Positions 26,154 through 42,237 of a stretch of 64,000 nucleotides of DNA are shown in pieces. The translations under genes were made by a program, and so were the position numbers. Under the pieces are notes generated by a model. That model was not told where the DNA came from. It made no database searches and worked only from the letters and a program-made list of their open reading frames with translations. The stretch lies in assembly GCF_016106035.1 (NCBI RefSeq), contig NZ_JADKPZ010000011.1:1-64000 (forward strand), given 5' to 3'. The stretch comes from Arcobacter vandammei (lineage in GTDB: Bacteria > Campylobacterota > Campylobacteria > Campylobacterales > Arcobacteraceae). How positions within the stretch are numbered: position 1 is the first letter of the stretch; each line of letters opens with the position of its first letter.

Positions 26154-26178
26154 ATTTTTCCCTTTTATTTAGATTTAA

Positions 26179-27174
26179 TTATTTTATTTGTGTTGCTGTA
26201 ATAGCTACTAAGTTTGAAATATCTTCAACTGAACAACCTCTTGAAAGGTCATTTACTGGTTTATTTAAACCTTGGATAATTGGTCCATGAGCTTCTGCAT
26301 TTGCAAATCTTTGAACAAGTTTATATCCAATATTTCCTGCTTGTAAATCAGGGAATACTAAAATATTTGCTTTTCCAGCCACTTTTGAGTTCGGTGCTTT
26401 TTTTACACCAATAGATTCAACGATTGCTGCATCTGCTTGAAGTTCTCCATCAAATTGGAAATCTACATTTCTTGAAGTTAATATTTCACAAGCTTTTGTA
26501 ACTTTATCAACTAATGGATGAGCAGCACTCCCTTTTGTTGAGAAACTAAGCATTGCAACTCTAGGTTCAAGTCCTACTACACTAGCTGCTGTTGCTGCTG
26601 TTGCACTTGCAATATCAGCTAATTGTTCACTTGTTGGTTCAGGAATTACTGCACAATCTGCAAATAAAATTAGACCATTGTCTCCAAATTTACCATCAGC
26701 TGTTTCCATAACAAAAGCTGAAGAAACTGTATTTATTCCAGGAGCTGTTTTAATTACTTGAATAGCAGCTCTTAAAACATCAGAAGTTGGAGAGTTAGAA
26801 CCAGCAACTAAACCGTCAGCATCTCCTAGTCTAACCATCATACAACCAAAAAATCTTGGCTCATTTAACATAATTTCTTTAGCTTCTTCTCTTGAAAGAT
26901 TTTTACTTTTTCTAAGTTCAACTAATTCATCAATATATTTTTCGATATTATCAAATTTTTTTGGATCTATAATTGTTGCACCATCTATTTTTGCACCACA
27001 TTTTGCTGCATCTGCCTTAATTGTATCTTCATTTCCAATTAAGATAACCTTTGCTGTTTTATCATTTAAAACTTGCTCAGTAGCTTTTAAAACTCTTTCA
27101 TCCTCAGATTCAGGAAGAACGATTGCTCTTAAATTTTCTTTAGCTTTACTTTTTATACTATCAATTAAACCCAT
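26179..27174 (-). CDS. pta: Phosphate acetyltransferase (short form)
   Basis: The 331-residue enzyme converts acetyl-CoA and phosphate to acetyl phosphate. It is the short, catalytic-domain-only form, lacking the N-terminal DRTGG part of the long E. coli enzyme. Conserved stretches include IVLPESEDERVLKA, MVRLGDADGLVAGS, AMLSFSTKGSAAHP, ELQADAAI, the VFPDLQAGNIGYKL region and GPIIQGLNKPVNDLSRG. It precedes ackA in the same operon. The 250-base upstream gap to the second ackA shows no further gene. Confidence 0.96.
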   Translation of the reverse strand: MGLIDSIKSKAKENLRAIVLPESEDERVLKATEQVLNDKTAKVILIGNEDTIKADAAKCGAKIDGATIIDPKKFDNIEKYIDELVELRKSKNLSREEAKEIMLNEPRFFGCMMVRLGDADGLVAGSNSPTSDVLRAAIQVIKTAPGINTVSSAFVMETADGKFGDNGLILFADCAVIPEPTSEQLADIASATAATAASVVGLEPRVAMLSFSTKGSAAHPLVDKVTKACEILTSRNVDFQFDGELQADAAIVESIGVKKAPNSKVAGKANILVFPDLQAGNIGYKLVQRFANAEAHGPIIQGLNKPVNDLSRGCSVEDISNLVAITATQIK

Positions 27175-27359
27175 TTTGGTAAATTTTCCTTTCTAAAATT
27201 AAACTTTCAGCAAGGATTATAATTAAGAACAGTAGCAACAAAGTAGCAAGAAAAAAGTGATTTTTTAACTAAAAGAACTATTTTTTGGGATTTAATTAGG
27301 AAAAATATAAATATTCAATGATTTAATTAAGTATTTAAGACATAAATTGAATATAAATT

Positions 27360-27388
27360 GCAATATGTACATTTTTTGTACATATTGC
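27360..27388 (-). terminator. Terminator of the second acetate kinase gene
   Basis: A perfect 12-bp inverted repeat (27360-27371 / 27377-27388) with a TTTTT loop lies 36 bases beyond the stop codon of the ackA paralogue at 27425. The U-tract after it on the minus strand is weak (AATTTATATT), so efficiency is uncertain. Confidence 0.7.
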
Positions 27389-27424
27389 TCAATTTTTAAA
27401 AAGATTTATTTTTGTAACAGTTTA

Positions 27425-28615
27425 CTATTTTCTTACAAGTCTATCTGTATCATTTGCAATAACAAGCTCTTCATTTGTAGGAATTACATAGATTTTTGTT
27501 TTAGAGTTTTTACTATTTATTTCTCTATTTCCTTTTGCTCTTGTAGCATTTTTAGTTTTATCTATTTCAATTCCCATAAACTCTAAACCTTCACAAACTT
27601 TTTCTCTAATTAAATCAGAGTTTTCTCCAATTCCAGCAGTAAAACAAATAGCATCAACGCCGTGCATAAGACCTGCATAAGAACATAGATATTTTTTAAT
27701 TCTATCACATAGCATAGTTATTGCTATTTGTGATCTTTTATCCCCATCATTTGAAGCTTTTATAACTTCTCTTAAATCAGAACTAATTCCAGAAACACCT
27801 AATATTCCAGATTTTTTGTTTAAATAATCTAAAATTTGAGTATGGCTTAAATTCTTTTTCTCCATTAAATATGGAATAACACCTGCATCTATATCTCCAC
27901 TTCTAGTACCCATTACAAGCCCTTCAAGTGGTGTTAATCCCATAGATGTAGCAATTGATTGTCCATCTTTAACAGCACAAACAGATGAACCATTTCCTAA
28001 GTGACAAACTATAACTTTGCTATCTTTTTTATTTAAAATTTTTATAGCTTCTTGTGAAACATAGTAGTGGCTTGTTCCGTGAAATCCATATTTTCTTAAG
28101 TGATGCTCTGTGTAGTCTGCATAAGGAACTGCATATAAAAAGTTTTCTATTGGCATTGTTTGGTGAAATGCTGTATCAAAAGTTACAACATTTGGAACTT
28201 TTGGCATTAGCTCTTTACAAATTTTTACACCCATAATATTTGCAGGGTTATGAAGTGGTGCAAGTGGAATTAAATCTTCAATTTTTTTGATAACTTCATC
28301 ATCAACTAAAACAGACTCTTTAAAATGTTCTCCACCATGAACAACTCTATGTCCAATAGCTTTAATTTCATCAATAGAGTTGATAACCTTTGTTTCATCG
28401 TTTGTAAGAATTCTTAAAACTAACTCAATAGCCTCTTTATGTGTAGGAATTGGTAGTTCAAAAGTTATTTTTTTATTTTCACCAATTTCATGTTTTAAAA
28501 TTCCATCTATTCCAATTCTTTCAACTAAACCACTAGCTTTTAGCTCTTTTGATTTTGTATCTATTAGTTGATATTTTAGTGAAGATGAACCAGCATTTAG
28601 TACGAAAACTAACAT
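27425..28615 (-). CDS. Acetate kinase, second copy
   Basis: A 396-residue acetate kinase with all family marks: MLVFVLNAGSSSLKYQL, GHRVVHGGEHF, FDTAFHQTMP, HLGNGSSVCA and FTAGIGENS. It differs from the pta-linked copy throughout, so this is an established paralogue rather than a fresh duplication. It stands alone between a terminator and the inverted repeat at 28630-28681. It may use acetate or a related short-chain acid such as propionate; the sequence does not decide. Its position at the edge of the symporter block suggests a role in carboxylate uptake. Confidence 0.93.
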   Translation of the reverse strand: MLVFVLNAGSSSLKYQLIDTKSKELKASGLVERIGIDGILKHEIGENKKITFELPIPTHKEAIELVLRILTNDETKVINSIDEIKAIGHRVVHGGEHFKESVLVDDEVIKKIEDLIPLAPLHNPANIMGVKICKELMPKVPNVVTFDTAFHQTMPIENFLYAVPYADYTEHHLRKYGFHGTSHYYVSQEAIKILNKKDSKVIVCHLGNGSSVCAVKDGQSIATSMGLTPLEGLVMGTRSGDIDAGVIPYLMEKKNLSHTQILDYLNKKSGILGVSGISSDLREVIKASNDGDKRSQIAITMLCDRIKKYLCSYAGLMHGVDAICFTAGIGENSDLIREKVCEGLEFMGIEIDKTKNATRAKGNREINSKNSKTKIYVIPTNEELVIANDTDRLVRK

Positions 28616-28692: not shown

Positions 28693-29316
28693 TTACTTAA
28701 TTTTTACATTTGGTGTATTTTTTAGCTTTAGAAAAATCATAGAAGTCATTAAAGCATCGTTAAAAGAGTCATGAATTCCAAAAGCAGGAATCTCAAGTTC
28801 TTGTAAAATAGTATTAAATCTTAAATCAATAAAGCCTTGAGGAATTAACTCTATTTTAAAATCATGGTAAATTTCAGATACTTCAAGAGTTTTATTTGGA
28901 AGATTTATTCCAATTTTTGGTTTTAGATATTTATTTACCATTTTTATATCAAAATCTAAAAAATATCCAACTAAAGTTCTATTTCCTATAAAATCTAAAA
29001 ATTCTAAAATAACATCATCTATATCTAAAGCATCTTCTAAATCGCACTCTCTTATATGATGAACTTTAATAGAGTTCTCATTTAAAGAGCAAAATTTTGG
29101 TTTTACATATCGTACAAATCTTTTACTTGAAACTATTGTATTGTTTTTTATTAAAACAGCACCAATAGAAACTATATCATCAATCTCAGGATTAAGCCCT
29201 GTTGTTTCACAATCAAAACAGATAAACTCATCTTTTATTGGCTCATCAAAAAGATAAGAGTAATTTTCATCTTTTAATGATTTTTTATTAAAATAGTTTT
29301 TTATATTTCTAAACAT
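28693..29316 (-). CDS. DEDDh 3'-5' exonuclease (DnaQ-like), partner of the DUF294 protein
   Basis: The 207-residue protein is an exonuclease-fold enzyme with all catalytic residues in view: Asp35 and Glu37 in FDCETTGLNP, the second Asp in VGYFLDFD, and His/Asp in GIHDSFNDA near the C-terminus. A basic N-terminal stretch precedes the domain. Its start overlaps the end of the DUF294 gene by eight bases, so the two are translationally coupled. It resembles the polymerase III epsilon fold but is encoded far from replication genes and repeats as a pair with DUF294 at 35514. Natural substrate unknown. Confidence 0.85.
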   Translation of the reverse strand: MFRNIKNYFNKKSLKDENYSYLFDEPIKDEFICFDCETTGLNPEIDDIVSIGAVLIKNNTIVSSKRFVRYVKPKFCSLNENSIKVHHIRECDLEDALDIDDVILEFLDFIGNRTLVGYFLDFDIKMVNKYLKPKIGINLPNKTLEVSEIYHDFKIELIPQGFIDLRFNTILQELEIPAFGIHDSFNDALMTSMIFLKLKNTPNVKIK

Positions 29317-31150
29317 AGTTAAGCTTAAAGTGGAATTCTAGCTGTTTTTTAAGTCTATTTACAATTTTAAAAGAGTCTTTTAATAAATCTTTTTCCATTG
29401 TATTTAACTTATTTGGATTTATATAGTTATCTATTTTTTCATTTATATCAAGTTTTTCTAAATTTGATTTTAATTTTAAACTAGTCAAAAAATTAAATGC
29501 CATAATAAGCTCTTTTGCAGTCTCTTTCTCAAAAAAACCTAAGTCAGCCATAGCATTTATTCTTTTTATTGTATTTGTATTTAAAATTTTATTTTGTAGG
29601 CTCAAAGCTCTTATTCCTTGAACTAATATAAAAATTCCACCTCTTTTTATATCTATCTCATCTTTATGATTTTCATCTTTGTTGTTAAATACAAAACCAT
29701 CAAAGAAACCTAAAGGAACATCAAAACTATTAATTACTTTTGCAAAATTTGAATAAAAACTTTGTGAATTTGAAGAGATTTTAAATAAATAAGCTTTTAA
29801 TTCTTTTATCATATTTATATCTCCTGATACACAAAGTGCATCATAAAATATTGCAATATTCATAAAATGATCTCCACTTGGTTCATTTATCCATTTATAA
29901 ATCAAATCTTTAAAATCTTTCTGTTTTCTACACCAATAAGGATTTGAAACCATAATATTTCCTTCACATCTAGGAAAGCCAAAATCTACCAAAGTTTCAG
30001 TGAAATTATGTGTAAATTCTCTTAATTTTTCATCACTAATTGTGCAATCATCAGAGATTATTAAAGCATTATCTTGATCTGTTCTTAAAATTTGTTCAGC
30101 TCTTCCTTCGCTTCCCATAACAACTAAACAAGATTTATCAATTAATTCTGTTGGTGCTAAAAGTTTGTAAAGTTTATCAAGAAGTTTTTTGTTTAATTGA
30201 TTTATTAATTTTGAGATAAACTCAATTTTTACACCTTTTGCATTTAGTGATTTTATAATTTTTATAAATGAGTGTGAAGCCTCTTTTAACTCTTCTAGTG
30301 TTTCAGCTTTTATTATTTGATTTGAAACGGCAAAAGTATTTGTAGCAAAGAAAGATGATAATGATATTTGGTCTAGTATTCCACAAATTTTTCCTTCATC
30401 ATTATTTACAACAACTCTTTTTAAGCCATATTTTGCCATTTGAAGTTGAGCATTAAATAAAAAATCATCTTCATTTATATAAATTAGTCCCTTAGATGCA
30501 ATTTTTACAACCTCTTCATCAAAACTCATTCTGTTTAAAATAACCTTTTGTCTAAAATCTGAATCAGTTACAATATACATCTCTCCATCTTCATCTTTTA
30601 GAAGTAAAGTTGGGATTTTTTCTTGCTTTATTACTTTTGCAGCTTCATAAATAGAAGTTTTACTATCAACTATTACAGCTTTATGAACTGTTGCATCTTT
30701 TACTTTTGCAATCATAATATTTGCCATATCTTTGTTTTTTTCGTGCAAGATATTGTTGTTTAACTTATCAGAAATTGATTGAAAGAAGTAGTTTTCAAGC
30801 TGTTGATTTTGGCTTAAAATAGACATAAATAGCTCTCTTGGAAGAGTATAACATATACTTTCTTGAGCAGTAACAAAGCTATTTTTAGAGAAATTTTTAA
30901 TTAAAGAAGCTGAGTCAAAAATCTCATTTTTTGAATAAACAGCTAAAACTTCATCTTCACTTTTTTCTTGAATTAATCCTTTTAGAATAAAATATAAATA
31001 TTGTGGTTCAGTATGTGAATTTTGAACTACAGTACCCTCTTTGAAATATACAATATCTAAGGCTTCAGCAATATCATCTAATTCATTTAATGTAAGATTT
31101 TCAAAAGGATGAATAGAAGATATAAATTTTTTTTGTTCTTGTAAGCTCAT
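29309..31150 (-). CDS. cNMP-binding/CBS/DUF294 putative nucleotidyltransferase
   Basis: The 613-residue soluble protein has a cyclic-nucleotide-binding-like domain (about 14-130), a CBS pair (about 150-272), a DUF294 nucleotidyltransferase domain with GSEGRAEQILRTDQDNALI at 346-364, and a helical DUF294 C-terminal domain (about 470-610). The GS...TDQD pattern is that of GlnD/GlnE-like nucleotidyltransferases, so it may nucleotidylate a protein or make a small nucleotide in response to ligands bound by its sensor domains. It lies after an ActP-DUF485 pair and is coupled to an exonuclease. Activity is inferred. Confidence 0.88.
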   Translation of the reverse strand: MSLQEQKKFISSIHPFENLTLNELDDIAEALDIVYFKEGTVVQNSHTEPQYLYFILKGLIQEKSEDEVLAVYSKNEIFDSASLIKNFSKNSFVTAQESICYTLPRELFMSILSQNQQLENYFFQSISDKLNNNILHEKNKDMANIMIAKVKDATVHKAVIVDSKTSIYEAAKVIKQEKIPTLLLKDEDGEMYIVTDSDFRQKVILNRMSFDEEVVKIASKGLIYINEDDFLFNAQLQMAKYGLKRVVVNNDEGKICGILDQISLSSFFATNTFAVSNQIIKAETLEELKEASHSFIKIIKSLNAKGVKIEFISKLINQLNKKLLDKLYKLLAPTELIDKSCLVVMGSEGRAEQILRTDQDNALIISDDCTISDEKLREFTHNFTETLVDFGFPRCEGNIMVSNPYWCRKQKDFKDLIYKWINEPSGDHFMNIAIFYDALCVSGDINMIKELKAYLFKISSNSQSFYSNFAKVINSFDVPLGFFDGFVFNNKDENHKDEIDIKRGGIFILVQGIRALSLQNKILNTNTIKRINAMADLGFFEKETAKELIMAFNFLTSLKLKSNLEKLDINEKIDNYINPNKLNTMEKDLLKDSFKIVNRLKKQLEFHFKLNYV

Positions 31151-31171
31151 ATTTTCTCCTAAAAAGATTAT

Positions 31172-31200
31172 AAAATAAAGGACTTTAAGCCCTTTATTTT
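31172..31200 (-). terminator. Terminator between actP and the DUF294 gene
   Basis: A 10-bp perfect stem (31172-31181 / 31191-31200) with a 9-nt loop begins two bases beyond the actP stop codon. On the minus strand it is followed by ATAATCTTTTT. It may be a partial terminator that lowers transcription into the downstream DUF294-exonuclease pair. Confidence 0.65.
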
Positions 31201-31201
31201 G

Positions 31202-32869
31202 TTAGTGTGAAACAGCTCCAGCTGATCCAATTCCTGTATTTGCTCTAATATTTTGAGCTCTAAATTTAGCTCTATCATTTTTTGCTCTTTGTGAGTTATC
31301 AGTAATACTAAATAACCAAATACCAACAAATGCAACTGTAACAGAGAATAGTGCAGGGTGTGCATATGGGAAAATAGCTTCTTTATTTCCTAAAATTTGT
31401 ACCCAAACATTTGGTCCTAGAATTACAAGTGCAACAGCAGTAAATAATCCCATAAATCCACCAATAAATGCCCCTCTTGTTGTAAGTTTAGACCAATAAA
31501 TTGATAAGAATAGAATAGGGAAGTTAGCAGATGCTGCAATTCCAAATGCCAATCCAACCATATATGCAATATTTTGTGATTCAAATGCAATTCCTAAAAC
31601 TACACCTATAATTCCAATTATAATAACAGTAATTTTAGATATTTTAACAACTTTTTCATCACTTGCATTTGGATTTATAACATTTGCATAAATATCGTGA
31701 GAAATAGCACTAGCACCTGCAAGTGTAAGACCTGATACAACTGCTAAAATTGTAGCAAAAGCAACAGCAGATATAAATCCTAAGAAAGCATTTCCACCTA
31801 ACATATGTGATAAGTGAACAGATGCCATATTAGATCCACCAAATAAAGCTCCACCAGCCATATATGCTTTTGCATCAACAAAGTATTGAGCACCTGCATC
31901 TGTATTTAAAAAGGCAATTGCTCCAAATCCAACAATAGTAATAATTACCCAGAAATATGCTACAAATCCAGTTGCATAAACTACAGATTTTCTAGCTTCT
32001 TTTGCATTTCCAACTGTAAAGAATCTCATAAGAACGTGAGGTAAACCAGCAGTTCCAAGCATTAAAGCCATTCCAAGAGAAATAGCAGAGATAGGATCAG
32101 ATAAGAATCCACCTGGTTTTAAAATATCTTCACCTTTATTATGATTCTCAACAGCTTGAACAGCAAGTGCTTCAAAGTTAAAGTTAAAGTGCCATAAAAC
32201 CATAATAGCCATAAATGAAACTCCAGATAGAAGTAATACAGCTTTAATAATTTGTACCCAAGTTGTTGCTAACATTCCACCAAAAGTTACATAAATAATC
32301 ATTAAAGCTCCAACTAAGAATACAGCATAGATATACTCCATTCCAAAAAGAATTTGAATTAGTTTTCCAGCTCCAACCATTTGAGCAATTAGATATAAAA
32401 CAACAACTGAAAGTGAACCAAATGCAGCTAAAGTTCTAATCTCTTTTTGACCTAATCTATATGCAGCAATATCAGCAAAAGTAAATTTACCTAAGTTTCT
32501 TAATTTTTCTGCCATAAAGAATAGAATAATTGGCCAACCAACTAAAAATGAAACGGCATAGATAACTCCATCATAACCATTCATATAAATAAGTCCAGAA
32601 ACTCCAAGGAATGCAGCAGCACTCATATAATCTCCAGCAATTGCTAAACCATTTTGAAAACCTGTAATTCCTCCACCAGCAGTATAGAAATCATTTGCAG
32701 ATTTTGTTTTTCTTGCAGCCCAAAAAGTAATTCCTAAAGTACCAGCAATAAATACAAAAAACATAATAATTGCAGGTAAATTTAAATCTCTTTTCCCTTC
32801 AAAAGTTGCATCACCTGCAGCAAATGCCCATAATGCAAAAATAGATAATAGTGCTAAAACTCTTAACAT
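31202..32869 (-). CDS. actP: Cation/acetate symporter ActP (copy 1)
   Basis: The 555-residue membrane protein of the sodium:solute symporter family has about 13 hydrophobic segments. It shows the ActP marks: [64 protein letters not shown], and [12 protein letters not shown]. It should import acetate or a similar short carboxylate with sodium. The start overlaps the stop of its DUF485 partner by one base. A close paralogue lies at 33421, indicating duplication of the DUF485-actP unit. Confidence 0.92.
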
Positions 32870-33186
32870 TATAATAAATCCTTTACATCTCTTTTTATTT
32901 GGTTAGTTAAATCTTCAAACTCTGTATTTGCTCTTCTTACATAGATTAAAGTTGTAATAAAACTAATAACCAAAATAGCTAATGCAATTGGAAATGCAAT
33001 TGTTGTAACATATCCTTCTGCAACTTTTGCTGAAAATAGCTCTTTGTTAAAAGCAATAATAGTTATGTAAGAATAAAACATAACTAAAACAAAAATTCCA
33101 AGTTTCAATGAAAAGCTATTTCTTTTTGAAACTAACTCTTTATATTTTGGATTTTCTTCAATCCTATCAACTAATTTCTCGTTCAT
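32869..33186 (-). CDS. DUF485 small membrane protein (YjcH-like), partner of ActP
   Basis: The 105-residue protein has a cytoplasmic N-terminus with the conserved [15 protein letters not shown], then two membrane segments (about 27-47 and 61-82), and a charged tail. DUF485 proteins are almost always encoded just upstream of actP, as in yjcH-actP of E. coli, and are thought to assist the symporter. Here the two genes overlap by one base. A paralogue accompanies the second actP at 35064. Confidence 0.9.
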
Positions 33187-33387
33187 TCTCCGACCTTTTT
33201 TTGACTTTTTGTAATTAAAAAAATAATTAACAAAAGATAAACAATTATACTTAGTTATTGGAATTTTACGAAGAATTAAACAAAAAATGGATTTAAAAAT
33301 TGTAGAAAAATTGTAGAATAGTAACAGAAAAATAATATTTTAATTATTAAAATTAATTATATTTCTTAAGATTAAATTTATAAAAAA

Positions 33388-33415
33388 TTACTAAAGAGAT
33401 TTCTCTCTTTAGTAA
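33388..33415 (-). terminator. Intrinsic terminator of the second actP
   Basis: A perfect 12-bp stem (33388-33399 / 33404-33415) with loop TTTC lies five bases after the actP stop. On the minus strand it is followed by an uninterrupted T-run, the complement of AAAAAA at 33382-33387. This is a textbook intrinsic terminator. The remaining 200 bases up to the DUF485 start at 33186 hold the promoter region of the first actP unit; no gene was seen. Confidence 0.93.
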
Positions 33416-33420
33416 AGGTT

Positions 33421-35064
33421 TTAGTGATCAACAGCTCCGTCAGCTCCGATACCAGTTTCAGCTCTAATTCTTTGAGCTTCAAATCCTGATTTGTCTTCAG
33501 TTGCTCTTGCTGAACTATCAGTAATCGAGAAGAACCAGATACTAATAAATGCAGCAGTAATCGAGAATAATGCAGGTTGTGTATAAGGGAATATTGCCGC
33601 TTCAAAGTGGAATATATCAACCCATACAGTTTTACTTAATACAACTAGAACGATAGCTGTAAGAAGACCAATGAATCCACCAATAAATGCTCCTCTAGTA
33701 GTCAATTTAGACCAGTAGATTGAAAGAATTAAGATTGGGAAGTTAGCAGATGCTGCAATAGCGAATGCTAGACCAACCATGAATGCAATGTTTTGGTTTT
33801 CAAATGCAAATCCTAAAAGAATAGCAACAATACCAATAACTAAAACAGTTCTTTTTGAAACTTTCATCTCTTCAGCATCTGTAGCTTGACCTTTTCTAAT
33901 AACGATTGCATATAAATCGTGTGCAATAGAGTTAGAAGCAGCAAGTGTAAGACCAGCAACAACCGCTAAGATTGTAGCAAATGAAACAGCTGCAATAAAT
34001 CCTAAGAAAATATCTCCACCAACAGCTTGTGATAAGTGAACAGCTGCCATATTAGCTCCACCAATGATACCTTTAAAGTCAATTACACCATCTTTAAAGT
34101 AAACAGCACCTTCGCTTAATAAGAAAACAACAGCACCTAAACCAACAACTCCAATGATTAAGTAGAAGTAACCAATGAATGCAGTTGCCCAAACAACAGA
34201 TTTTCTAGCTTCTCTTGCATTTCCAACTGTAAAGAATCTCATAAGAATATGAGGTAAACCAGCAGTTCCTAGCATTAAAGCAAGTCCTAAAGAAACAGCA
34301 GAAACTGGATCAGATACGAATGGACCTGGTTTTAAAATAGCATCACCTTTTGGGTGCATACTTACAGCTTCAGCTGCTAAGTTACCAAATGAGAAACCAT
34401 AGTGAGAAAGTACCATTATAGCAATGAATGTTACTCCTGATAAAAGTAATACAGCTTTAATAATTTGTACCCATGTAGTAGCAAGCATTCCACCAAATGT
34501 TACGTAAACAATCATTAATGCACCAACTATTACAACAGACCAAGCGTAAGGAATATGGAATAATAATTCAATTAATTTTCCAGCTCCAACCATTTGAGCA
34601 ATTAAGTAGAAAGTAACAACTGTTAAAGAACCAAATGCAGCAAGAATTCTGATTTTTTGCTCATCTAATCTATATGCAGCAATATCTGTAAAGTTGAATT
34701 TACCTAAATTTCTTAATTTTTCAGCCATTAAGAAAAGAATAATTGGCCAACCAACAAGGAAACCAATAGCATAAATCATACCATCAAATCCGTGTAAGAA
34801 AATCATTCCAGAAATACCTAAGAATGAAGCAGCACTCATATAATCTCCAGCAATTGCTAGACCATTTTGGAATCCTGAAATTCCTCCACCTGCTGTATAG
34901 AAATCTTGTGCAGATTTTGTTTTACTAGCAGCCCATTTTGTAATACCCATAGTAGCAACTATGAATACAAAGAACATAATAACAGCAGGAATATTCACTG
35001 CTCCACCATCAGATGCAAATAGTGCTAATGATGATAATCCTAATAAAGATAGTATTTTTAACAT
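33421..35064 (-). CDS. Cation/acetate symporter ActP (copy 2)
   Basis: A 547-residue sodium:solute symporter closely similar to the one at 31202. It shows [63 protein letters not shown] and [12 protein letters not shown]. It starts with a short signal-like hydrophobic segment. It should take up acetate or a related monocarboxylate. Its unit contains only DUF485 and actP and ends in a strong terminator, so it lacks the DUF294-exonuclease pair found downstream of the other two symporters in this block. Confidence 0.92.
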
Positions 35065-35375
35065 TATAAAATATCCTTTACATCATTTTTAATAGAAGTT
35101 TCTAAGTCTTCAAACTCACCATTTGCTCTTACAACATAAATTACAGTTGTAATAAAAGCAATTAAGATGATTGTTACAGCAATAGGCCATGCAACAGTCA
35201 TAACTTCACCAACTTTTGTAGCGAAAAACTCTTTATTAAATGCGATAGTTAATACGAAACCGTAGTAAATTACCAACATAAAGATTGCTAATTTAATAGC
35301 AAAAGAACTTCTTTTTGAAATAAGTTCTTTGTATTTAGGATTAGCTTTAATCCTTTCTACTAATTCTTTATTCAT
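35064..35375 (-). CDS. DUF485 small membrane protein, partner of the second ActP
   Basis: This 103-residue protein has two membrane helices and the conserved N-terminal [24 protein letters not shown]. The frame can be extended to 35432, but the ATG at 35375 has AGGAG about seven bases upstream and gives the same N-terminus as the paralogue at 32869. It overlaps the actP start by one base. DUF485 proteins accompany ActP in many proteobacteria and probably form part of the transporter. Confidence 0.9.
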
Positions 35376-35474
35376 TTTTTCTCCTAAAATAAGATTCATT
35401 GAAATAGTAAAATATCTTAGTTGCAAAAACATAGCATTTTAAAAAATAATGAAAAAAAAGTGAAATAATTGTAG

Positions 35475-35497
35475 AAATAGCGATAAAATCGCTATTT
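35475..35497 (-). terminator. Terminator after the second exonuclease gene
   Basis: A perfect 10-bp stem AAATAGCGAT / ATCGCTATTT with an AAA loop lies 16 bases after the exonuclease stop codon. Relatively GC-rich for this genome. It closes the four-gene unit DUF4212-symporter-DUF294-exonuclease and separates it from the DUF485-actP unit. Confidence 0.82.
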
Positions 35498-35513
35498 TAA
35501 GTGAGAAAAATAT

Positions 35514-36122
35514 TTATTTTGAAATCTCTTTTAGCTTTAAAAACATCATAGCAGTCATAATTGCATCATTTAAAGCATCATGTTTTCCTAAAAAAGGAAT
35601 ATTTAAATATTTCATAATAGTATCAAATTTAAGGTCTAAGAAACCATTGTTTGCTATTTTTTTTCTATGGTCATAATATATTCCAGATACTTCAATAGCT
35701 TGATTTGGAAGTTTTACACCAATAATTTTTTTTGTATATTTAGAAATCATTGCCATATCAAAATCTATATAGTAACCAACTATTGGTCGAGGTCCTATAA
35801 AGTTAAGAAGCTGAAAAATTGCAATTTCTGGTTCAAGAGCATTTTCTAAGTCAGTTTGTCTTAAATGGTGAATTTTTATTGATTCAGGGTTTATTAACTT
35901 TGATGGTTTAACAAAAATATTAAATGTTTGTCTCATTAATATCTTATTGTCTTTTATTAAAACAGCACCAATAGAGAGTATTTCATCATTCTTTGGATTA
36001 AGTCCAGTTGTTTCACAATCAAGACTTACATACTCATTTGGTGGTGGAACATCAAATAAAGTTTCAAATCTTTTGCTTTTTAGCTTTTTCTTCTCTAAAT
36101 TTCGTAAAATATTCTTAAACAT
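35514..36122 (-). CDS. DEDDh 3'-5' exonuclease, second copy of the DUF294 partner
   Basis: The 202-residue paralogue of the exonuclease at 28693 keeps the catalytic set: LDCETTGLNP, VGYYIDFD and GKHDALNDA. The spacing and the basic N-terminus (LEKKKLKSKRFE) match the first copy. Its start overlaps the stop of the DUF294 gene by one base. The conserved pairing with DUF294 suggests it acts on a nucleotide product or on an RNA/DNA linked to the nucleotidyltransferase; a housekeeping role in replication is less likely. No experimental function is known to me. Confidence 0.85.
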   Translation of the reverse strand: MFKNILRNLEKKKLKSKRFETLFDVPPPNEYVSLDCETTGLNPKNDEILSIGAVLIKDNKILMRQTFNIFVKPSKLINPESIKIHHLRQTDLENALEPEIAIFQLLNFIGPRPIVGYYIDFDMAMISKYTKKIIGVKLPNQAIEVSGIYYDHRKKIANNGFLDLKFDTIMKYLNIPFLGKHDALNDAIMTAMMFLKLKEISK

Positions 36123-37939
36123 TAGTAAATCTTATCTAGTTTAAATATATAAGAGATGAAGTTTTTAAATTCTGTTACTATTTTTAAACTCTCTTTTAAA
36201 AGGTCTCTCTCTATTTTTCCTAAGGCATTTGTATCAATATTATTTGAAATCTCTTTTCCATTATTTATTGAATCAAGATGATGTTTTAATCTTAGAGTAT
36301 TTACTATTTCAAATGCTTCAATTAACTCTGCTGCCATATTTTTTTCAATAATTTTTCTATCTTCAAGTATTTTAATTCTTTTAACTGTTGTTGTCTCTTT
36401 TATTTTCTCTTTTAAGCTTAAGCTTCTAATTCCTTGAACTATTGGGAAAATTGCAGCTTTTTTAATATTTATTAGATTATTTTTTCCAATAAAGCTTGAT
36501 ATTGCAGTTGGTGTTTCAAATGCAGTTGTTGATTTTGCAAAATATGCTAAGAATAAATCATTTTGAACTTTATTAAATAGATGCTCTTTTAATATAATTA
36601 AAAGTTCTTTATCTCCAGCAACAGCAAATGAGTCAATAAATATTGCTAAATCTAAGTAGCCTTTCATATCAGGGCTATTTATCCATCTTGCAATATCGTG
36701 CTTGAACTCAGTAAAACTTTTGCACCAAGCTGGATTTGAAACCATAATATTCCCTTTACAAGGTGGGTAACCTAACTCTATTAAATTTTCAGTAATTTGT
36801 TGCATAAATGGTCTATATTGTTCAACATCTACACCATCTTTTACAATTAAAGCATTATCTTGATCTGTTTTTATTATCTGTTCATTTCTTCCTTCACTTC
36901 CCATTACTATTAAACAAGCACTCTCTTGAAGTTCATTTGGTAAAACAAGGCTATATAATTTTTGATAAACTTTTGTATTTAATTGACCAATTAAACTTGA
37001 AATATGGTGAATTTTTACACCTTTTGCTTGAAGGCTTGTAATAATTTCAAGAAAATCTTTACTTGCATTTTTTAAATCTTGAACATTTTTCGCATTTTTT
37101 ATTTTTGATTCAATAACATAAGTATGATTTGCAAAGTGTGATAAAATATCGATTTGTTCAAGTATTCCAACCATTTCTCCATTGTTATTTACAACACCAA
37201 CTCTTTTTATATTTCTTTTTACTAAAATAGTTAAAGCTTCAAATAAGTAGTCATCTTGTTTGATTGTAAGAAGTGGAAAAATAGCAATATCTTTTACAGC
37301 TATATCTAAATCTCTACCTTGTAAAAGTACCTTTACTTTCAAAAGAGAATCTGTAATAATTCCATAACCTAGCTCTTTACTTTTTATGATAATTGTAGAA
37401 GTTTTAAATTGCATAGATTTTTCAATTGCATCTATTAATTTTGTATCTTCATCTACAATACAGGCTTCGTGTATTAAGGTATCTTGAACTTTTGCTATCA
37501 TAAAAGAAGATAATTCAGATGTGTACTCTTTGTCTTTTAGTGTTTGGATTTTATTAACTAAATCTTTTAGGAAAAAATCTTTGAATTCTTGATTTTTTTC
37601 CATCAAAGATAAAAAAGCTTTTTTATCTATTTCATAACAAATAAGCTCTTCGTGAACTTTGAAAGTATGTTCACACTTCCCATAAATTAAAGAGTTTGAA
37701 TCAAAAGAGTCTTCACTTTGATAATCCATAATTAGATTATTCTCTTTTGAATATTCAAATACAGAACCTTTTATAATTAAAAAAAATGTATCAGGAATCT
37801 TATTTGGACTAATTAATACAGTATCTTTTGGATAATAAGCTATATCCATATGTTGAAGGCACATTGACATTTGGCTAGGGCTTAAGTGTCCAAATGGATG
37901 AATATTTGATAAAAATATCTCTTGGTCTTGAATGCTCAT
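36122..37939 (-). CDS. cNMP-binding/CBS/DUF294 putative nucleotidyltransferase, second copy
   Basis: The 605-residue paralogue of the protein at 29309 has the same order: cNMP-binding-like domain (about 14-130), CBS pair (about 150-272), nucleotidyltransferase domain with GSEGRNEQIIKTDQDNAL, and DUF294 C-terminal helices. The catalytic GS and the DxD-type TDQD residues are intact. It overlaps the symporter stop upstream by four bases and the exonuclease start downstream by one base, so symporter, DUF294 and exonuclease are made together. It may sense a ligand and modify the transporter or a signal nucleotide; this is inferred. Confidence 0.88.
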   Translation of the reverse strand: MSIQDQEIFLSNIHPFGHLSPSQMSMCLQHMDIAYYPKDTVLISPNKIPDTFFLIIKGSVFEYSKENNLIMDYQSEDSFDSNSLIYGKCEHTFKVHEELICYEIDKKAFLSLMEKNQEFKDFFLKDLVNKIQTLKDKEYTSELSSFMIAKVQDTLIHEACIVDEDTKLIDAIEKSMQFKTSTIIIKSKELGYGIITDSLLKVKVLLQGRDLDIAVKDIAIFPLLTIKQDDYLFEALTILVKRNIKRVGVVNNNGEMVGILEQIDILSHFANHTYVIESKIKNAKNVQDLKNASKDFLEIITSLQAKGVKIHHISSLIGQLNTKVYQKLYSLVLPNELQESACLIVMGSEGRNEQIIKTDQDNALIVKDGVDVEQYRPFMQQITENLIELGYPPCKGNIMVSNPAWCKSFTEFKHDIARWINSPDMKGYLDLAIFIDSFAVAGDKELLIILKEHLFNKVQNDLFLAYFAKSTTAFETPTAISSFIGKNNLINIKKAAIFPIVQGIRSLSLKEKIKETTTVKRIKILEDRKIIEKNMAAELIEAFEIVNTLRLKHHLDSINNGKEISNNIDTNALGKIERDLLKESLKIVTEFKNFISYIFKLDKIY

Positions 37940-39672
37940 AAAATTTCCTTTATCTCTGGAGTTCTTAAGTTATCAATTAAAATAACGACTTCCTCTGGTA
38001 CTTTTGATGTAAATTTTGAAACGATAATAGAAATAAAAATATTTAATATAGCTCCAACAACACCAATTCCTATAGGCATAATACCAAATAAATATTTATC
38101 ATAAGAGTAAAGATCATTTTCTATAAAACAAAAATAGATTATATATACTAAAATAAACAATAAAGATACTATTAAACCAGAAATTGCTCCCTCTTTTGTA
38201 ATATTTTTACTAAATATCCCAAGAACAATTGTAGGAAAAAGAGTCCCTGCTAAAATAGTAAAGGATATTGTAATTGTCTCTATTATAGAGTAATTTGGTA
38301 TTGTAAAAAATGTAGCTAGAGAGATAATAGCTAAAAGAAATATTTTTGAGAAAATCTTATATCTTTTTGTGTTATAAGCTATATCTTTCTCTTCAAAGAA
38401 GATAAGTATAGAGTTTGTACTAATTAAGATTAATCCAGTCATAGTTGATAAGGCTGCTGCTAAAGCACCAGCTAAAATTAGAGCAACAGTCCAGTTTGGA
38501 AGATTTGCTATTTCTGGATTAATCAAAGTTTGAATATCTGGATTTATATAAAGTTCGTTTGAAGAAGAGTTATTTATTTGTATTTTACTATCTTGATTTT
38601 TGTCAGTAAATTCAACTTCTTTTATATTTTGCCAAATATCAAGCCATTTCCCATTGTTATCTAATCCATTTGGATGTTTTATTTCTCCATTTATAAAGGC
38701 TTCATATTCAACATTTTGAGTATGTTTGATACTGTTTATTTTTGATAATGCACCTAAAGGTGACATTGCTGTATAAATTATAGCAATAAAAACCAAAGCC
38801 CAAAAAGCTGATTTTCTTGTATCATTTACACTTGGAGTCGATATAAACTTCACTAAAATATGAGGTAAGGCTGCAACTCCTAACATAAGTGATAATGAAA
38901 TTGTAAAAATATCAAGAAGTCCAAGAGCTTTTGTATAGGAAAATCCGTAATCTTCTAAACTACTATCTAAAACATGAAGTAAATAGCTTCCTTGCTCTAT
39001 TGTTTTAATTCCTGAATCAAAAATAAAATTTGTTTTTGAAAATAGAGCAAGTTGAGGAATAAAACCATTTGTAAGCTCTAAAGATAGAAATATTATAGGA
39101 GTTATAAATGCAAATAAAATAATCATATATTGTGCAATTTGAGTATAAGTAACTTGTCTTATTCCACCAAAAAGTGAATATAAAAAGGCAACAAAAATTG
39201 CAACAACAAGGGCTATATCTTTATCTATTTGAAAAATTCTTGAAAATACTATTCCAATACCTTTAATTTGTGCAGAGATATAAATAAAAGAGACAATAAT
39301 TATAATAAAAATTGTCAAATTTCTAGCAAATTTTGAGTAGTATCTAGCTTCTATAAATTCACTTAAATGAAACTTTCCAAATTTTCTTAAATAAGGAACA
39401 ATTAAAAGAGCTAAAAGTACAAATCCACCAGTAAAACCCATAATATATGCTGAACCAGAAAAACCTAAAAGAGATATTGTTCCAGCAAGTGCTACAAAAG
39501 TAACAGCACTTATAAAATCAACTGCAATTGAAACACCATTTACTACAGGACTAAAAGAGTTTTTTGCAATATAAAAATCTTTTGTTGAACTAGATTTTGT
39601 CCATAAAGCAAGACCAAAATATATTGTAAATGATACACCAACTAGAAGATAAATTAAAGATTGAAGTTCCAT
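37936..39672 (-). CDS. Sodium:solute symporter, VC_2705 type
   Basis: The 578-residue membrane protein has about 13 hydrophobic segments and the symporter-family pattern (KDFYIAKNSFSPVVNGVSIA, FHLSEFIEARYYSKFARN, FGGIRQVTYTQIAQY). It belongs to the group that works with a DUF4212 small subunit (VC_2705 type). A hydrophilic insertion of about 90 residues (near 300-390, rich in Asn/Asp/Glu) sits between two membrane helices; similar loops occur in this group. The substrate is likely a carboxylate or amino acid; acetate is suggested only by neighbours. It is coupled to DUF4212 upstream and DUF294 downstream. Confidence 0.88.
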   Translation of the reverse strand: MELQSLIYLLVGVSFTIYFGLALWTKSSSTKDFYIAKNSFSPVVNGVSIAVDFISAVTFVALAGTISLLGFSGSAYIMGFTGGFVLLALLIVPYLRKFGKFHLSEFIEARYYSKFARNLTIFIIIIVSFIYISAQIKGIGIVFSRIFQIDKDIALVVAIFVAFLYSLFGGIRQVTYTQIAQYMIILFAFITPIIFLSLELTNGFIPQLALFSKTNFIFDSGIKTIEQGSYLLHVLDSSLEDYGFSYTKALGLLDIFTISLSLMLGVAALPHILVKFISTPSVNDTRKSAFWALVFIAIIYTAMSPLGALSKINSIKHTQNVEYEAFINGEIKHPNGLDNNGKWLDIWQNIKEVEFTDKNQDSKIQINNSSSNELYINPDIQTLINPEIANLPNWTVALILAGALAAALSTMTGLILISTNSILIFFEEKDIAYNTKRYKIFSKIFLLAIISLATFFTIPNYSIIETITISFTILAGTLFPTIVLGIFSKNITKEGAISGLIVSLLFILVYIIYFCFIENDLYSYDKYLFGIMPIGIGVVGAILNIFISIIVSKFTSKVPEEVVILIDNLRTPEIKEIL

Positions 39673-39674
39673 TA

Positions 39675-39935
39675 TTACTCGCTTATAGAGTATTTTTGTT
39701 CAATTTTAGATATTTTTCTGATATAGATAAAAATAATAAGAATAAAAAAGAGTATTGAACCTTGATTTGCTAAAAAGAATCCAAATTTTACACCAAAGAA
39801 TTCAAATTGATTTAGGAAATTTGCTCCAAAAATAGCAAGTCCAAAAGTGATAATTGCCCAAGCAAGTAACAATTTTGCAATAAGTAAAAGATTCTCTTTC
39901 CAGTATTGTTGTGCAAAACTTTGCTCTTTGTTCAC
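39675..39935 (-). CDS. DUF4212 small subunit of the symporter
   Basis: The 86-residue protein has the DUF4212 pattern: a polar N-terminus with QQYWKENLLLIAKLL, two membrane helices (about 15-37 and 47-70), and FFGVKFGFFLANQGSILFF between and within them. Such proteins are encoded directly upstream of VC_2705-type symporters, as here (two bases apart), and are regarded as a small transporter subunit. It heads the four-gene unit that ends with the exonuclease at 35514. Confidence 0.9.
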   Translation of the reverse strand: MNKEQSFAQQYWKENLLLIAKLLLAWAIITFGLAIFGANFLNQFEFFGVKFGFFLANQGSILFFILIIFIYIRKISKIEQKYSISE

Positions 39936-40010: not shown

Positions 40011-40673
40011 TTAAGCAGAGTAGTATCTATCTATTTTATATCCAAGACCTCTAATATTTTTTATAAAATCCTCTTTTAAAGATTTTTTTAGCCTTGAAAT
40101 TTCAGCTCTAATTGTAGGATTGTCAATATTTTCAGCATCCCAAACATCAACTCTAAATCTTTCAAAATCTACAATCATATTTATATTTAAAGCTAAAATA
40201 TGAATAATTTCAAGTTGTTTTTTTGTAAGATTTTGTGGTTCTCCATTGAAATATAGAGTTTGTTTATCTTTTGAGTAAGAGTAATTTTCAGAAAATCTAA
40301 TATGACTTGTATTATTTTGCTCTTTTTTTAGAATTTGATTTATTTTAATTCCTAGTTCACCTAGATGAAAAGGTTTTTTTAAATACTCTCTAGCTCCCAA
40401 ATTATATGCTTTTGTAATATCTTCTATATCAATTTGAGCAGAAATAAAAATTGTTGGAATATGAATCTTTCTAAGATTTAGTTCATTTAAAATTGAAAAA
40501 CCATCTATATTTGGTACATTTACATCAAGTATTAATAAATCATAACTTTTTTCAATATTATTTAAAACTTCTGCTCCATCCATAAAGCTTTCAACCATAT
40601 GCCCAATTCCCCTTAAATATTCGCTAATAGCACTATTTAACATTAATTCATCTTCAAGAAGTAATATCTTCAT
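40011..40673 (-). CDS. OmpR-family response regulator
   Basis: The 220-residue protein has an N-terminal receiver domain with acidic Glu7-Asp8, the phosphorylation site Asp50 in LLILDVNVPN, and the conserved Lys100 in YLKKPF, followed by a winged-helix DNA-binding domain (about 125-216) ending GLGYKIDR. It is transcribed after, and overlaps by 20 bases, the Cache histidine kinase. Its place next to the symporter block suggests control of these genes in response to an external small molecule, possibly a carboxylate. Confidence 0.93.
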   Translation of the reverse strand: MKILLLEDELMLNSAISEYLRGIGHMVESFMDGAEVLNNIEKSYDLLILDVNVPNIDGFSILNELNLRKIHIPTIFISAQIDIEDITKAYNLGAREYLKKPFHLGELGIKINQILKKEQNNTSHIRFSENYSYSKDKQTLYFNGEPQNLTKKQLEIIHILALNINMIVDFERFRVDVWDAENIDNPTIRAEISRLKKSLKEDFIKNIRGLGYKIDRYYSA

Positions 40674-42237
40674 TTATTTTAAACCTATATATAAATTTTG
40701 TCTCTTTTGTGTCAGATTGAATATCGATTATAACTAAATTCTTATCACAAATCTCTTTTACGATTTTTAAACCTAAACCAAAACCACCTCGAGCTTGATT
40801 TTCTCTATAAAAATCATCAAAGATTTTATCTACACTCTCAATTTGTTTTGAGTTTGTTGTCACACTAAACTCTATTTCATCATCACTTAAATAAATAAGT
40901 TTAACAAAAATAGGAGACTTACTAAATGAGTATTTTACAGCATTAGATAGATTATTATCTATAACTCTTTGAAGTTCTGTTTGATTAAACTTTAAATAAA
41001 CATCATCTTCAATATTTTTTATAAAATATAGAGAGTTTGATTTTACAATCTCTTCAAAGAAGTCCATTCTATCTTTTAATACTTTTGAAAATTCTATATA
41101 CTCTTTTTCATAAATTACTCTATTTTTTTTGATTAAGTATGATAAATCATCATAAATATATTGAATTGTTTTTGAACCAGATTCTATATTTGTAATATAG
41201 TTATTGTCTGGAATTTTCATTTTTAATAGGTCTATATTTGTTCGTATAATTGCTAAAGGAGTATTTATTTCATGAACAGAGTTTTTTAAAAACTGCTTTT
41301 GAGATTCTACAAGATTAGATAGCTCTTTTGTTTTTTCATTAACTTTTGTTTCCAAATTTTTATTTAACTCTTCAAGCATTGAACTTTTTAGCTTCATATT
41401 TGTCATAGCATCATTTGCATAATTTGCAATTACTTTAAATTCACCAAAAATAATTCTACTTTGATTTATTGGGTCATTATTTTTTTGAGACTCTTTGAAA
41501 TAATTTCCTATCTCTTTTACATCATTTACAATTAAAATAGTTGCATTTTTGTAGATAAATATAGAGTATAAAATAAGTAAAATTGTAAGGGAAGTTATTT
41601 GAAGAGTATAGTTTGAAATCTTTTTGTTATACTCTTCTTCTTTTTGTTTTATTAATCTATCAATTTCATCAAGATAAACACCTTTTCCTAATGTCCAAGC
41701 CCATTTATTATAGGAATTTACATAAGATAGCTTATTTGTCTCTTTTGAAGCTTCTGGTTTTGTCCAAAAGTAGTTTACATAACCACCATTTTCATTTTTT
41801 GATTCATTTATTAACTCTAAAATTGGAAATTTACCTATTGAATCTTTAAAATTCAAAAAATTCTTACCAATATTTAGTTTTTCATTTGAACTTAATATTA
41901 CATTTCCATCAAAATCATAAATAAAAATATACTCATTTGGATTGTCGCTTAATTTAAGTTGGTTTATTGCTAAAATAACATCTTTTTTAATATCTTCTTC
42001 AGATTTTAAATCTATATTTTGTTTGTAATAGTAATCGATAAATTTAATTACATAATCAACATGATTTTTAAGTAGAGCTTTTTGATTATTTGTATAATCT
42101 GTTTTTAATGTATGAATTTTTTCTTGTAGCTCTTCGTGAGCATTGTTTATAATTGTAAAGGTGAAAAATGAGATTAGTATTATAATAAAAACTATACTAT
42201 AAACTATTAAGTGATATAGACTTTTTGCTTTTAACAT
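40654..42237 (-). CDS. Sensor histidine kinase with extracytoplasmic Cache domain
   Basis: The 527-residue inner-membrane sensor has a helix at about 10-31, a periplasmic Cache domain of about 175 residues (EYIFIYDFDGNVILSS, and WAWTLGKGVY near its end), a second helix (about 211-236), a linker and coiled coil, the phosphoacceptor His322 in SVHEINTPLA, and an ATPase domain with NNLSNAVKYS and GGFGLGLKIVKEI. Such single-Cache domains often bind small organic acids. It is coupled to the OmpR-type regulator. Ligand is unknown. Confidence 0.92.
   Translation of the reverse strand: MLKAKSLYHLIVYSIVFIIILISFFTFTIINNAHEELQEKIHTLKTDYTNNQKALLKNHVDYVIKFIDYYYKQNIDLKSEEDIKKDVILAINQLKLSDNPNEYIFIYDFDGNVILSSNEKLNIGKNFLNFKDSIGKFPILELINESKNENGGYVNYFWTKPEASKETNKLSYVNSYNKWAWTLGKGVYLDEIDRLIKQKEEEYNKKISNYTLQITSLTILLILYSIFIYKNATILIVNDVKEIGNYFKESQKNNDPINQSRIIFGEFKVIANYANDAMTNMKLKSSMLEELNKNLETKVNEKTKELSNLVESQKQFLKNSVHEINTPLAIIRTNIDLLKMKIPDNNYITNIESGSKTIQYIYDDLSYLIKKNRVIYEKEYIEFSKVLKDRMDFFEEIVKSNSLYFIKNIEDDVYLKFNQTELQRVIDNNLSNAVKYSFSKSPIFVKLIYLSDDEIEFSVTTNSKQIESVDKIFDDFYRENQARGGFGLGLKIVKEICDKNLVIIDIQSDTKETKFIYRFKINEDITS

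Follow-up and report, generated by a model that had tools for sequence, protein, structure and literature searches.

Reversible nucleotidylation of proteins is known so far for a few enzymes and effectors. The closest described counterparts of the genes considered here come from Pseudomonas, in which CrbR/ErdR control acs, actP and a gene of the DUF294 type (PMC5715377, PMC9927547), and in which an operon under ErdR in P. putida KT2440 encodes a CBS protein, PP_0354, together with an RNase_T protein, PP_0353 (PMC9927547). Here we describe two paralogous modules in a stretch of 64,000 nucleotides from Arcobacter vandammei (contig NZ_JADKPZ010000011.1, positions 1 to 64,000; the whole stretch is hereafter 'the window'), each consisting of a gene for a protein with cNMP-fold, CBS, DUF294 nucleotidyltransferase and DUF294_C domains and, immediately behind it, a gene for a DEDDh 3'-5' exonuclease, in the company of a gene for a sodium/solute symporter. 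This two-gene module is real, widely conserved and under-described, with its parts and its regulon partly in print. Our tentative proposal is that the DUF294 protein and the exonuclease act as a writer/eraser pair that switches an acetate/pyruvate symporter, a reading of the pair that was not found in the open-licence PMC literature searched.

The published genetics sets the terms for any such proposal. On 20 mM acetate, growth of P. putida was unaffected by deletion of PP_0353, PP_0354 or actP-I, and on 20 mM pyruvate it was impaired by deletion of PP_0353 or actP-I and not by deletion of PP_0354 (PMC9927547). In P. fluorescens the DUF294-type gene pflu5625 belongs to the CrbS/R regulon; its deletion was negligible for growth on acetate, and among double and triple mutants only those that also lacked pflu0110 were impaired (PMC5715377). 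The phrase 'double mutant' does not occur in the text of the P. putida study, whose authors suggest mRNA degradation, by analogy with the decay of aceA mRNA in Corynebacterium, and leave other mechanisms open (PMC9927547). No biochemical mechanism for the Pseudomonas pair, and no writer/eraser one, was found in the sections of these papers that were consulted. Nevertheless, the original prediction for this locus went too far in knowing of no description of such a pair, given that work on Pseudomonas has already described the operon, the part of MxtR/ErdR (CrbS/CrbR) in controlling it, and mutants in single genes.

The two modules and their conservation

Both modules are read from the minus strand. 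In module 1 the gene for the proposed writer, DUF294-1 (29309..31150), overlaps by 8 bases that for the proposed eraser, exonuclease 1 of the NF006601/PRK09145 type (28693..29316), and the partner is an ActP-type sodium:solute symporter (symporter 1, 31202..32869) with a DUF485 small subunit (32869..33186). In module 2 the partner is a VC_2705-type sodium/solute symporter (37936..39672) with a DUF4212 small subunit (39675..39935); the symporter gene overlaps by 4 bases that for the second proposed writer, DUF294-2 (36122..37939), which in turn shares a single base with the gene for the second proposed eraser, exonuclease 2 (35514..36122), again of the NF006601 type. The DUF294 proteins of the two modules are 40% identical and the exonucleases 51%. 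In the set compared, both DUF294 proteins have an uncultured Aliarcobacter as their nearest named relative (81% and 86%).

Pfam and NCBIfam models identify cNMP_binding, CBS, DUF294 and DUF294_C in both large proteins, and assign the two small proteins to RNase_T and NF006601 (3'-5' exonuclease); matches of the DUF294 proteins to PF03445 and PF10335 score 119-144 bits against cut-offs of 21 and 22.5, and the exonucleases reach 252 and 273 bits on NF006601 against a cut-off of 189. The VC_2705-type symporter scores 517 bits on TIGR03648 (cut-off 321) and its DUF4212 partner 86 bits on TIGR03647 (cut-off 26). The original prediction had placed two paralogous and overlapping pairs at these positions, each with a symporter of a different group (ActP with DUF485, VC_2705 with DUF4212), and had judged the catalytic residues of all four proteins to be intact. 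This description is borne out by the open reading frames of the minus strand, by the curated models and by alignments, in which the catalytic DEDDh positions and the nucleotidyltransferase motif G-S...D-x-D are preserved. It overlooked a second ActP-type symporter (33421..35064) and DUF485 subunit (35064..35432), which occupy 33421-35432 between the modules with no DUF294/exonuclease pair directly behind them. The two ActP-type symporters, each with its DUF485 partner, score 869 (symporter 1) and 859 bits on NF006903 (cut-off 750), and do not reach the stricter models NF009135 (850) and TIGR02711 (1099) at their cut-offs.

The same gene order is found in many other genomes, and so the arrangement is not a matter of chance. 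In a sample of 150 genomes, taken as Campylobacterota from the named relatives in a GTDB-wide scan, 27 genomes carry 32 strong DUF294 copies (above 100 bits), and the same 27 carry 32 exonucleases above the curated NF006601 cut-off, every one of them directly downstream of a DUF294 gene (32/32). A second sample comprised 95 genomes of one gammaproteobacterial order, that of G153, taken as Pseudomonadales, the order of Thiopseudomonas. Here a DUF294 gene lies directly in front of 14 of the 15 matches to NF006601 and 37 of the 39 to NF006602, a different DEDDh subfamily (51/54 in total; the exceptions are two fragments and an exonuclease that is below the cut-off). Of the 65 DUF294 copies in that order, 51 have an NF006601 or NF006602 exonuclease directly behind them, and at least one of the other 14 (on G153 contig 8) adjoins a further DEDDh gene. 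In the class of G156 (114 genomes) the exonuclease was present in three genomes, the centre included, with DUF294 adjacent in 3/3.

Beyond these samples we considered the best 80 of 588 loci from the GTDB-wide scan, a set biased by likeness to the window towards loci of the window's type, which hold 85 DUF294 copies with the exonuclease next to 74, not next to 8, and a contig edge at 3. For the 62 copies with at least 4 kb on both sides, which are not a random sample, the exonuclease is next in 58, a symporter lies within 9 kb in 55, acetyl-CoA synthetase (Acs) is a neighbour in 33 and a CrbS-like kinase in 31. 'CrbS-like' is our own label for large hybrid kinases that match the kinase of locus L062 by BLAST; the symporter domain passes its Pfam cut-off in one of five tested (L102), and the other four have about 630 unmatched residues before the PAS, kinase and receiver domains. 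Among the eight copies with no exonuclease next to them, one is explained by a sequence gap (L096) and two are those of L084 and L086; a search of the genomes of the other five found an over-cut-off exonuclease elsewhere in two (L073 and L082) and none reaching the cut-off in three (L094, L101 and L111). An apparent DUF294-exonuclease fusion, a reading frame of 977 residues in L096, was rejected, being a run of N that joins DUF294 to ackA.

Plasmids carry the module too. Of 61 plasmid records nine were opened, and four of the regions read DUF485-ActP-DUF294-exonuclease: those of Rhodovulum, Methylocella, Microvirga (there after acs) and P. aeruginosa, where the pair stands beside actP in the same order as the PAO1 homologues, which adjoin actP and yjcH (PMC9927547). 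Two others, of Ruegeria and Rhizobium, read DUF4212-symporter-DUF294-small protein-long exonuclease. A Vibrio penaeicida region has DUF294-exonuclease with a symporter two genes further, and in an unannotated Halomonas region a DUF4212/symporter unit diverges from an exonuclease gene and a DUF294 gene whose reading frame is broken into several pieces. The last, on a Paracoccus pantotrophus plasmid (L062, 5962-12821), presents in one row a CBS-DUF294 protein, an 81-residue protein with two hydrophobic segments, a histidine kinase, a response regulator and an exonuclease of 704 residues with weak PAS matches; the kinase bears a weak, sub-cut-off symporter-like match.

Several loci show variations on this theme. 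G276, G318 and G345 have two DUF294-exonuclease modules each. In one of the two the exonuclease is a sub-cut-off NF006602 match and the neighbour a VC_2705 symporter; in the other the exonuclease is of the full NF006602 type, for which a symporter was unseen in five of the six stretches opened. Proteins of about 170-200 residues resembling that encoded at L064 7799-8317, which has one hydrophobic segment and no Pfam match, recur beside VC_2705-type symporters (L094, L103, L105, L107, L111, L114, L179, L180 and others). Within the window's own genus, module 2 (the VC_2705-DUF294-2 region) looks to be under relaxed constraint in L040, L046 and L037: a stop codon splits the DUF294 gene of G127 (L040) and leaves the exonuclease intact, DUF4212 is undetected in L040 and L046, and a stop falls inside the symporter match of G030 (L037).

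Association with symporters and with acetyl-CoA synthetase

In the phylum sample an ActP- or VC_2705-type symporter accompanies the pair in 27 of 27 pair-bearing genomes and is present in 26 of the 123 others, while none of the 97 symporter-less genomes has the pair, all of these being counts uncorrected for phylogeny. For 22 of the 27, a single fetched stretch contains both pair and symporter; in G123, G109, G146, G056 and G044 they are unlinked and both are kept, and in the first four of these the unlinked symporter adjoins acs. In genus groups g8, g11, g15, g20 and g31, for which only listed genomes are covered, the unlisted members having neither symporter nor pair, the two are jointly present or jointly absent; Acs is over the cut-off in every listed genome of these groups except G086, which has a partial match.

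The association extends to the type of symporter. On a tree of 107 DUF294 proteins, 93 of them labelled by symporter, the label changes 8 times, compared with 30.5 changes in shuffles and with 0 of 500 shuffles as low; two labels (L037_14361 and L046_13305) are wrong, the nearest rather than the upstream symporter having been taken, and these make the number of changes larger. DUF294-1 and DUF294-2 belong to different clades, and each of these clades goes with a symporter type of its own. The genome survey by which the original prediction would have had itself checked reveals a pairing that recurs widely and tracks the symporter, and one part of its control-module idea that stands is that a conserved module goes with the symporter; its transporter target and its exonuclease as remover are conjectures to which we return below.

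The chief rival to our proposal applies the same chemistry to another target in acetate assimilation. In that case Acs, AckA/Pta, a CrbS-type kinase or some other regulator would be reversibly nucleotidylated, and the symporter would be a co-regulated neighbour. The counts given above for Acs and CrbS-like kinases near well-flanked DUF294 copies (33/62 and 31/62) agree with this, as do the co-control of acs, actP and the DUF294 gene in Pseudomonas (PMC5715377, PMC9927547), the company of DUF294 with a kinase bearing a symporter-like match in Paracoccus, and several loci of Vibrio and its relatives that read DUF294-exonuclease-acs, with no symporter in the fetched stretch of L133, L135, L142 and L145. 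Yet Acs is over the cut-off in only 21 of the 27 pair-bearing genomes and absent at E<=1e-100 from six, the window's genome included, while 28 genomes of the phylum that have Acs and lack a symporter have no pair at all; the phenotype common to the exonuclease and actP-I deletions (PMC9927547) also counts against this rival. Pair-bearing genomes that lack Acs weaken its case as the main target, and we retain it within a rival that we judge unlikely.

Predicted chemistry and proposed switch

A predicted model of DUF294-2 has a mean predicted local distance difference test score (pLDDT) of 88.6, and a model of its catalytic half (residues 281-605, encoded at 36122-37099 on the minus strand) one of 95.5. 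When this half was used in a fold search, the best matches were DrrA (Z 26.5, 3.7 A, 296 residues aligned), the N domain of GlnE (Z 25.6, 2.7 A, 293) and the adenylylation domain of GlnE (Z 25.3, 3.0 A, 287), all from enzymes that add adenosine monophosphate (AMP) to protein or remove it. Pieces of DrrA came next (14.8 and 13.0), and after them, at about 10 or lower, HEPN toxins and nucleotidyltransferases of the aminoglycoside type. The GlnE Pfam model had no match in the window's DUF294 proteins at E<=0.001. Residues G347, S348, D359 and D361 are present in 117 of 117 DUF294 sequences and D436 in 116; we take the last to be the third catalytic Asp, by analogy with the superfamily rather than from superposition. 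Judging by the predicted fold, DUF294 is probably a protein nucleotidyltransferase. The original prediction had offered nucleotidylation of the transporter and synthesis of a short nucleotide as alternatives, and the AMPylase-like fold favours protein modification over the latter.

Synthesis of a free nucleotide signal, or nucleotidylation of a small molecule, would imply that the exonuclease degrades the product and that the signal tunes uptake. Aminoglycoside adenylyltransferases (Z about 5.5-9.6) and HalB (about 7) do appear in the fold list, and a DEDDh oligoribonuclease is able to cut dinucleotide mimics and short RNA (PMC6390093). However, the DrrA and GlnE matches are nearly full length at Z 25-26.5, and makers of small molecules or oligonucleotides all fall below 10 among the 50 matches listed, which leaves this explanation decidedly improbable. 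RNA nucleotidyltransferases (Cid1, TUTase) likewise rank far below the protein AMPylases, at E about 0.3 as against 5e-8; on these rankings we regard an RNA- or small-molecule-modifying identity for DUF294 as improbable.

The fold list also contains MNT-HEPN complexes, one of them with an AMPylated HEPN toxin, and the two genes overlap or nearly do so, so one might imagine a domesticated toxin-antitoxin-like pair in which DUF294 AMPylates and silences the exonuclease, as MntA does HepT. This is very improbable indeed, given that loss of the presumed antitoxin caused no growth defect and loss of the presumed toxin did (PMC9927547, PMC5715377), and that several loci have a DUF294 gene with no adjacent exonuclease. 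A role in defence was rejected as well: PADLOC gave the exonucleases generic DEDDh, PDC-S48, reverse-transcriptase-associated and effector models, whereas DUF294-2 had no match and DUF294-1 a single weak one, to an effector model.

The input domains offer partial clues. Canonical cAMP-binding domains of the CRP type carry a phosphate-binding signature, GE...R[ST]A; the pattern GE...R[STC]A occurs in one of 117 DUF294 sequences and in neither window protein, and with the usual ligand signature missing from a cNMP-fold domain that keeps its fold in the predicted model, control by cAMP was discounted. In the first CBS motif a Thr is kept in 115 of 117 sequences and an Asp or Asn three residues on in 82, residues that presumably bind ribose in AMP-binding CBS pairs. 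Tuning to energy state, as originally suggested, thus stays possible through the CBS input, with the reservation that DUF294-2 has a Leu at the second position.

With regard to the exonuclease, each of the DEDDh residues (D, E, D, H, D) is present in 103-104 of 105 sequences. One DEDDh oligoribonuclease is able to hydrolyse pNP-TMP (PMC6390093), in which a nucleoside monophosphate (NMP) is esterified to an aryl group, and we liken this bond to that in tyrosyl-NMP (Tyr-O-NMP), which is also an aryl ester of an NMP. There is, moreover, a precedent for a nuclease in this role, RNase Z having been shown to be a deAMPylase (PMC12663964). We slightly favour the view that the exonuclease reverses nucleotidylation by DUF294. 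The alternative suggested for P. putida is that it degrades RNA, such as transporter or tricarboxylic acid cycle mRNA, with DUF294 regulating the exonuclease or tagging RNA. An RNase_T-family domain with intact DEDDh residues would suit this, and the aceA analogy (PMC9927547) lends it a precedent; nonetheless, RNA decay alone leaves the association of a nuclease with one transporter family unexplained, and the catalytic half of DUF294 resembles protein AMPylases rather than Cid1 or TUTase. RNA turnover ranks next after a different acetate-assimilation target, and we consider it improbable.

Some exonucleases are longer. Those of L064 (8320-9759) and L065 (8253-9941), behind DUF294 and a small protein, have an N-terminal extension, and a crude hydropathy scan finds two hydrophobic N-terminal segments in the long enzymes of Ruegeria and Rhizobium, as in these two loci. 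The L064 enzyme scores best on PRK07883/PolC-type models, another DEDDh subfamily. The hydrophobic segments hint that the long Ruegeria and Rhizobium enzymes may act at the membrane rather than on chromosomal DNA.

Returning to a switched symporter, we infer the following cycle. Low energy charge or another CBS ligand would activate the DUF294 protein, the CBS pair perhaps reading AMP and adenosine triphosphate (ATP). Like GlnE or DrrA, the enzyme would then modify either the symporter or the small subunit with a nucleotide, in all likelihood AMP, the acceptor most likely being a Tyr or other hydroxyl, and uptake by the nucleotidylated complex would fall. The exonuclease would hydrolyse the protein-O-NMP phosphodiester and so restore uptake, and each module would act on its own symporter class. 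That the symporter complex is the target of nucleotidylation has, in our estimation, an even chance. The P. putida phenotypes fit such a switch if the modification inactivates the transporter, because the eraser is then needed, the writer is dispensable and the eraser mutant resembles the transporter mutant; this is our reading and not that of the original authors.

A number of observations weigh against this proposal. Fold alone does not distinguish an enzyme that adds AMP from one that removes it, and the N domain of GlnE, an equally good match, is a deAMPylase (PMC12663964). Twenty-six phylum genomes have a symporter and lack the pair, which would make the switch optional. Joint absence within genera may reflect plain deletion of linked genes, the phylum counts share the phylogenetic limit already stated, and in Vibrio and its relatives the pair sits with acs. 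Among 20 loci chosen from the 65 copies in the gammaproteobacterial order, all pair-bearing by choice, five show neither symporter nor acs. RNase T, itself a DEDDh enzyme, is a further case. It failed to remove AMP from SodA-AMP in vitro and from SucA-AMP in cells (PMC12663964), a negative that does not settle the eraser role, since the deAMPylases tested in that study were substrate-specific. The published phenotypes are mild and carbon-source specific (PMC9927547, PMC5715377), and the equation of the Pseudomonas pairs with the window's module is presumed from the domain descriptions in those papers and the PAO1 gene order. Lastly, no nucleotidylated symporter was found in the open-licence PMC literature searched, and no target residue was found for nucleotidylation. 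When ActP sequences linked and unlinked to the pair were compared, Tyr394 was the only tyrosine that stood out, being Tyr in 98% of 57 linked and 30% of 20 unlinked sequences (mostly Phe otherwise), a difference confounded by phylogeny; no DUF485 tyrosine did so, and a few Ser, Thr, Lys, Asp and His positions differ too. The window's VC_2705 protein has no obvious Tyr at that site by eye, in a stretch that its pairwise alignment with ActP misses. Tyr394 is only a lead, as a candidate target residue.

The wider locus and comparison with known systems

The modules belong to a longer series of genes with the same orientation. In order of transcription these encode a Cache-domain histidine kinase (40654..42237), a response regulator with a Trans_reg_C domain (40011..40673), DUF4212, the VC_2705-type symporter, DUF294-2 and exonuclease 2, followed by DUF485, ActP-type, DUF485 and ActP-type proteins, DUF294-1, exonuclease 1, acetate kinase, phosphate acetyltransferase and acetate kinase. 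Genes similar to the kinase and response regulator recur upstream in relatives. Directly downstream of module 1, the region 24945-28615 (minus strand) has a single pta (26179..27174) flanked by two ackA genes (27425..28615 and 24945..26153); no acetyl-CoA synthetase of the TIGR02188 type was detected in the window's genome at E<=1e-100.

If the proposed switch is correct, nucleotidylation would extend to membrane transport, through a pair that Campylobacterota and Pseudomonadota have kept next to symporters for acetate/pyruvate, and two uncharacterised gene families would gain a function. It would also explain why the exonuclease mutant of P. putida resembles the transporter mutant and the nucleotidyltransferase mutant is normal, and may bear on how cells avoid a drain on ATP during a flood of acetate. 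Eraser and target alike would then be of a new class. The general form of the idea, that a carboxylate transporter family is switched by reversible nucleotidylation and that DEDDh exonucleases of at least two subfamilies are dedicated protein de-nucleotidylases, is doubtful at present.

The module has partial analogues in several known systems. MntA-HepT likewise encodes a nucleotidyltransferase beside a nuclease, but the nuclease fold is different, the partner here being a DEDDh exonuclease and not a HEPN RNase, and the published phenotypes are opposite. In the SelO/RNase Z system a nuclease works as a protein deAMPylase, as we propose, although SelO belongs to the pseudokinases and RNase Z to the metallo-beta-lactamase enzymes (PMC12663964). 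DrrA/SidM and SidD provide the best structural match to the writer and, like the module, divide writing and erasing between separate enzymes; however, DrrA is a secreted effector that modifies host Rab1, and the eraser SidD has a phosphatase fold rather than a nuclease fold (PMC12663964). GlnE modifies an enzyme reversibly for metabolic control, and each of its two nucleotidyltransferase domains is matched by the catalytic half of DUF294 at Z about 25 along 287-293 residues. The aligned folds are about 12% identical in sequence, and DUF294 differs in having one nucleotidyltransferase domain where GlnE has two, in its additional cNMP-fold and CBS input domains, and in its association with a separate DEDDh exonuclease in place of GlnE's own removing domain. 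There are also the counterparts in Pseudomonas, where, unlike the window's modules, the pair of P. putida and P. fluorescens lies near glcB and not next to actP (PMC9927547). By their descriptions, PP_0354 and PFLU5625 are CBS or cNMP-CBS-nucleotidyltransferase proteins co-regulated with actP and acs, and PP_0354 has an RNase_T-family operon partner, PP_0353, within the MxtR/ErdR (CrbS/CrbR) regulon (PMC9927547, PMC5715377).

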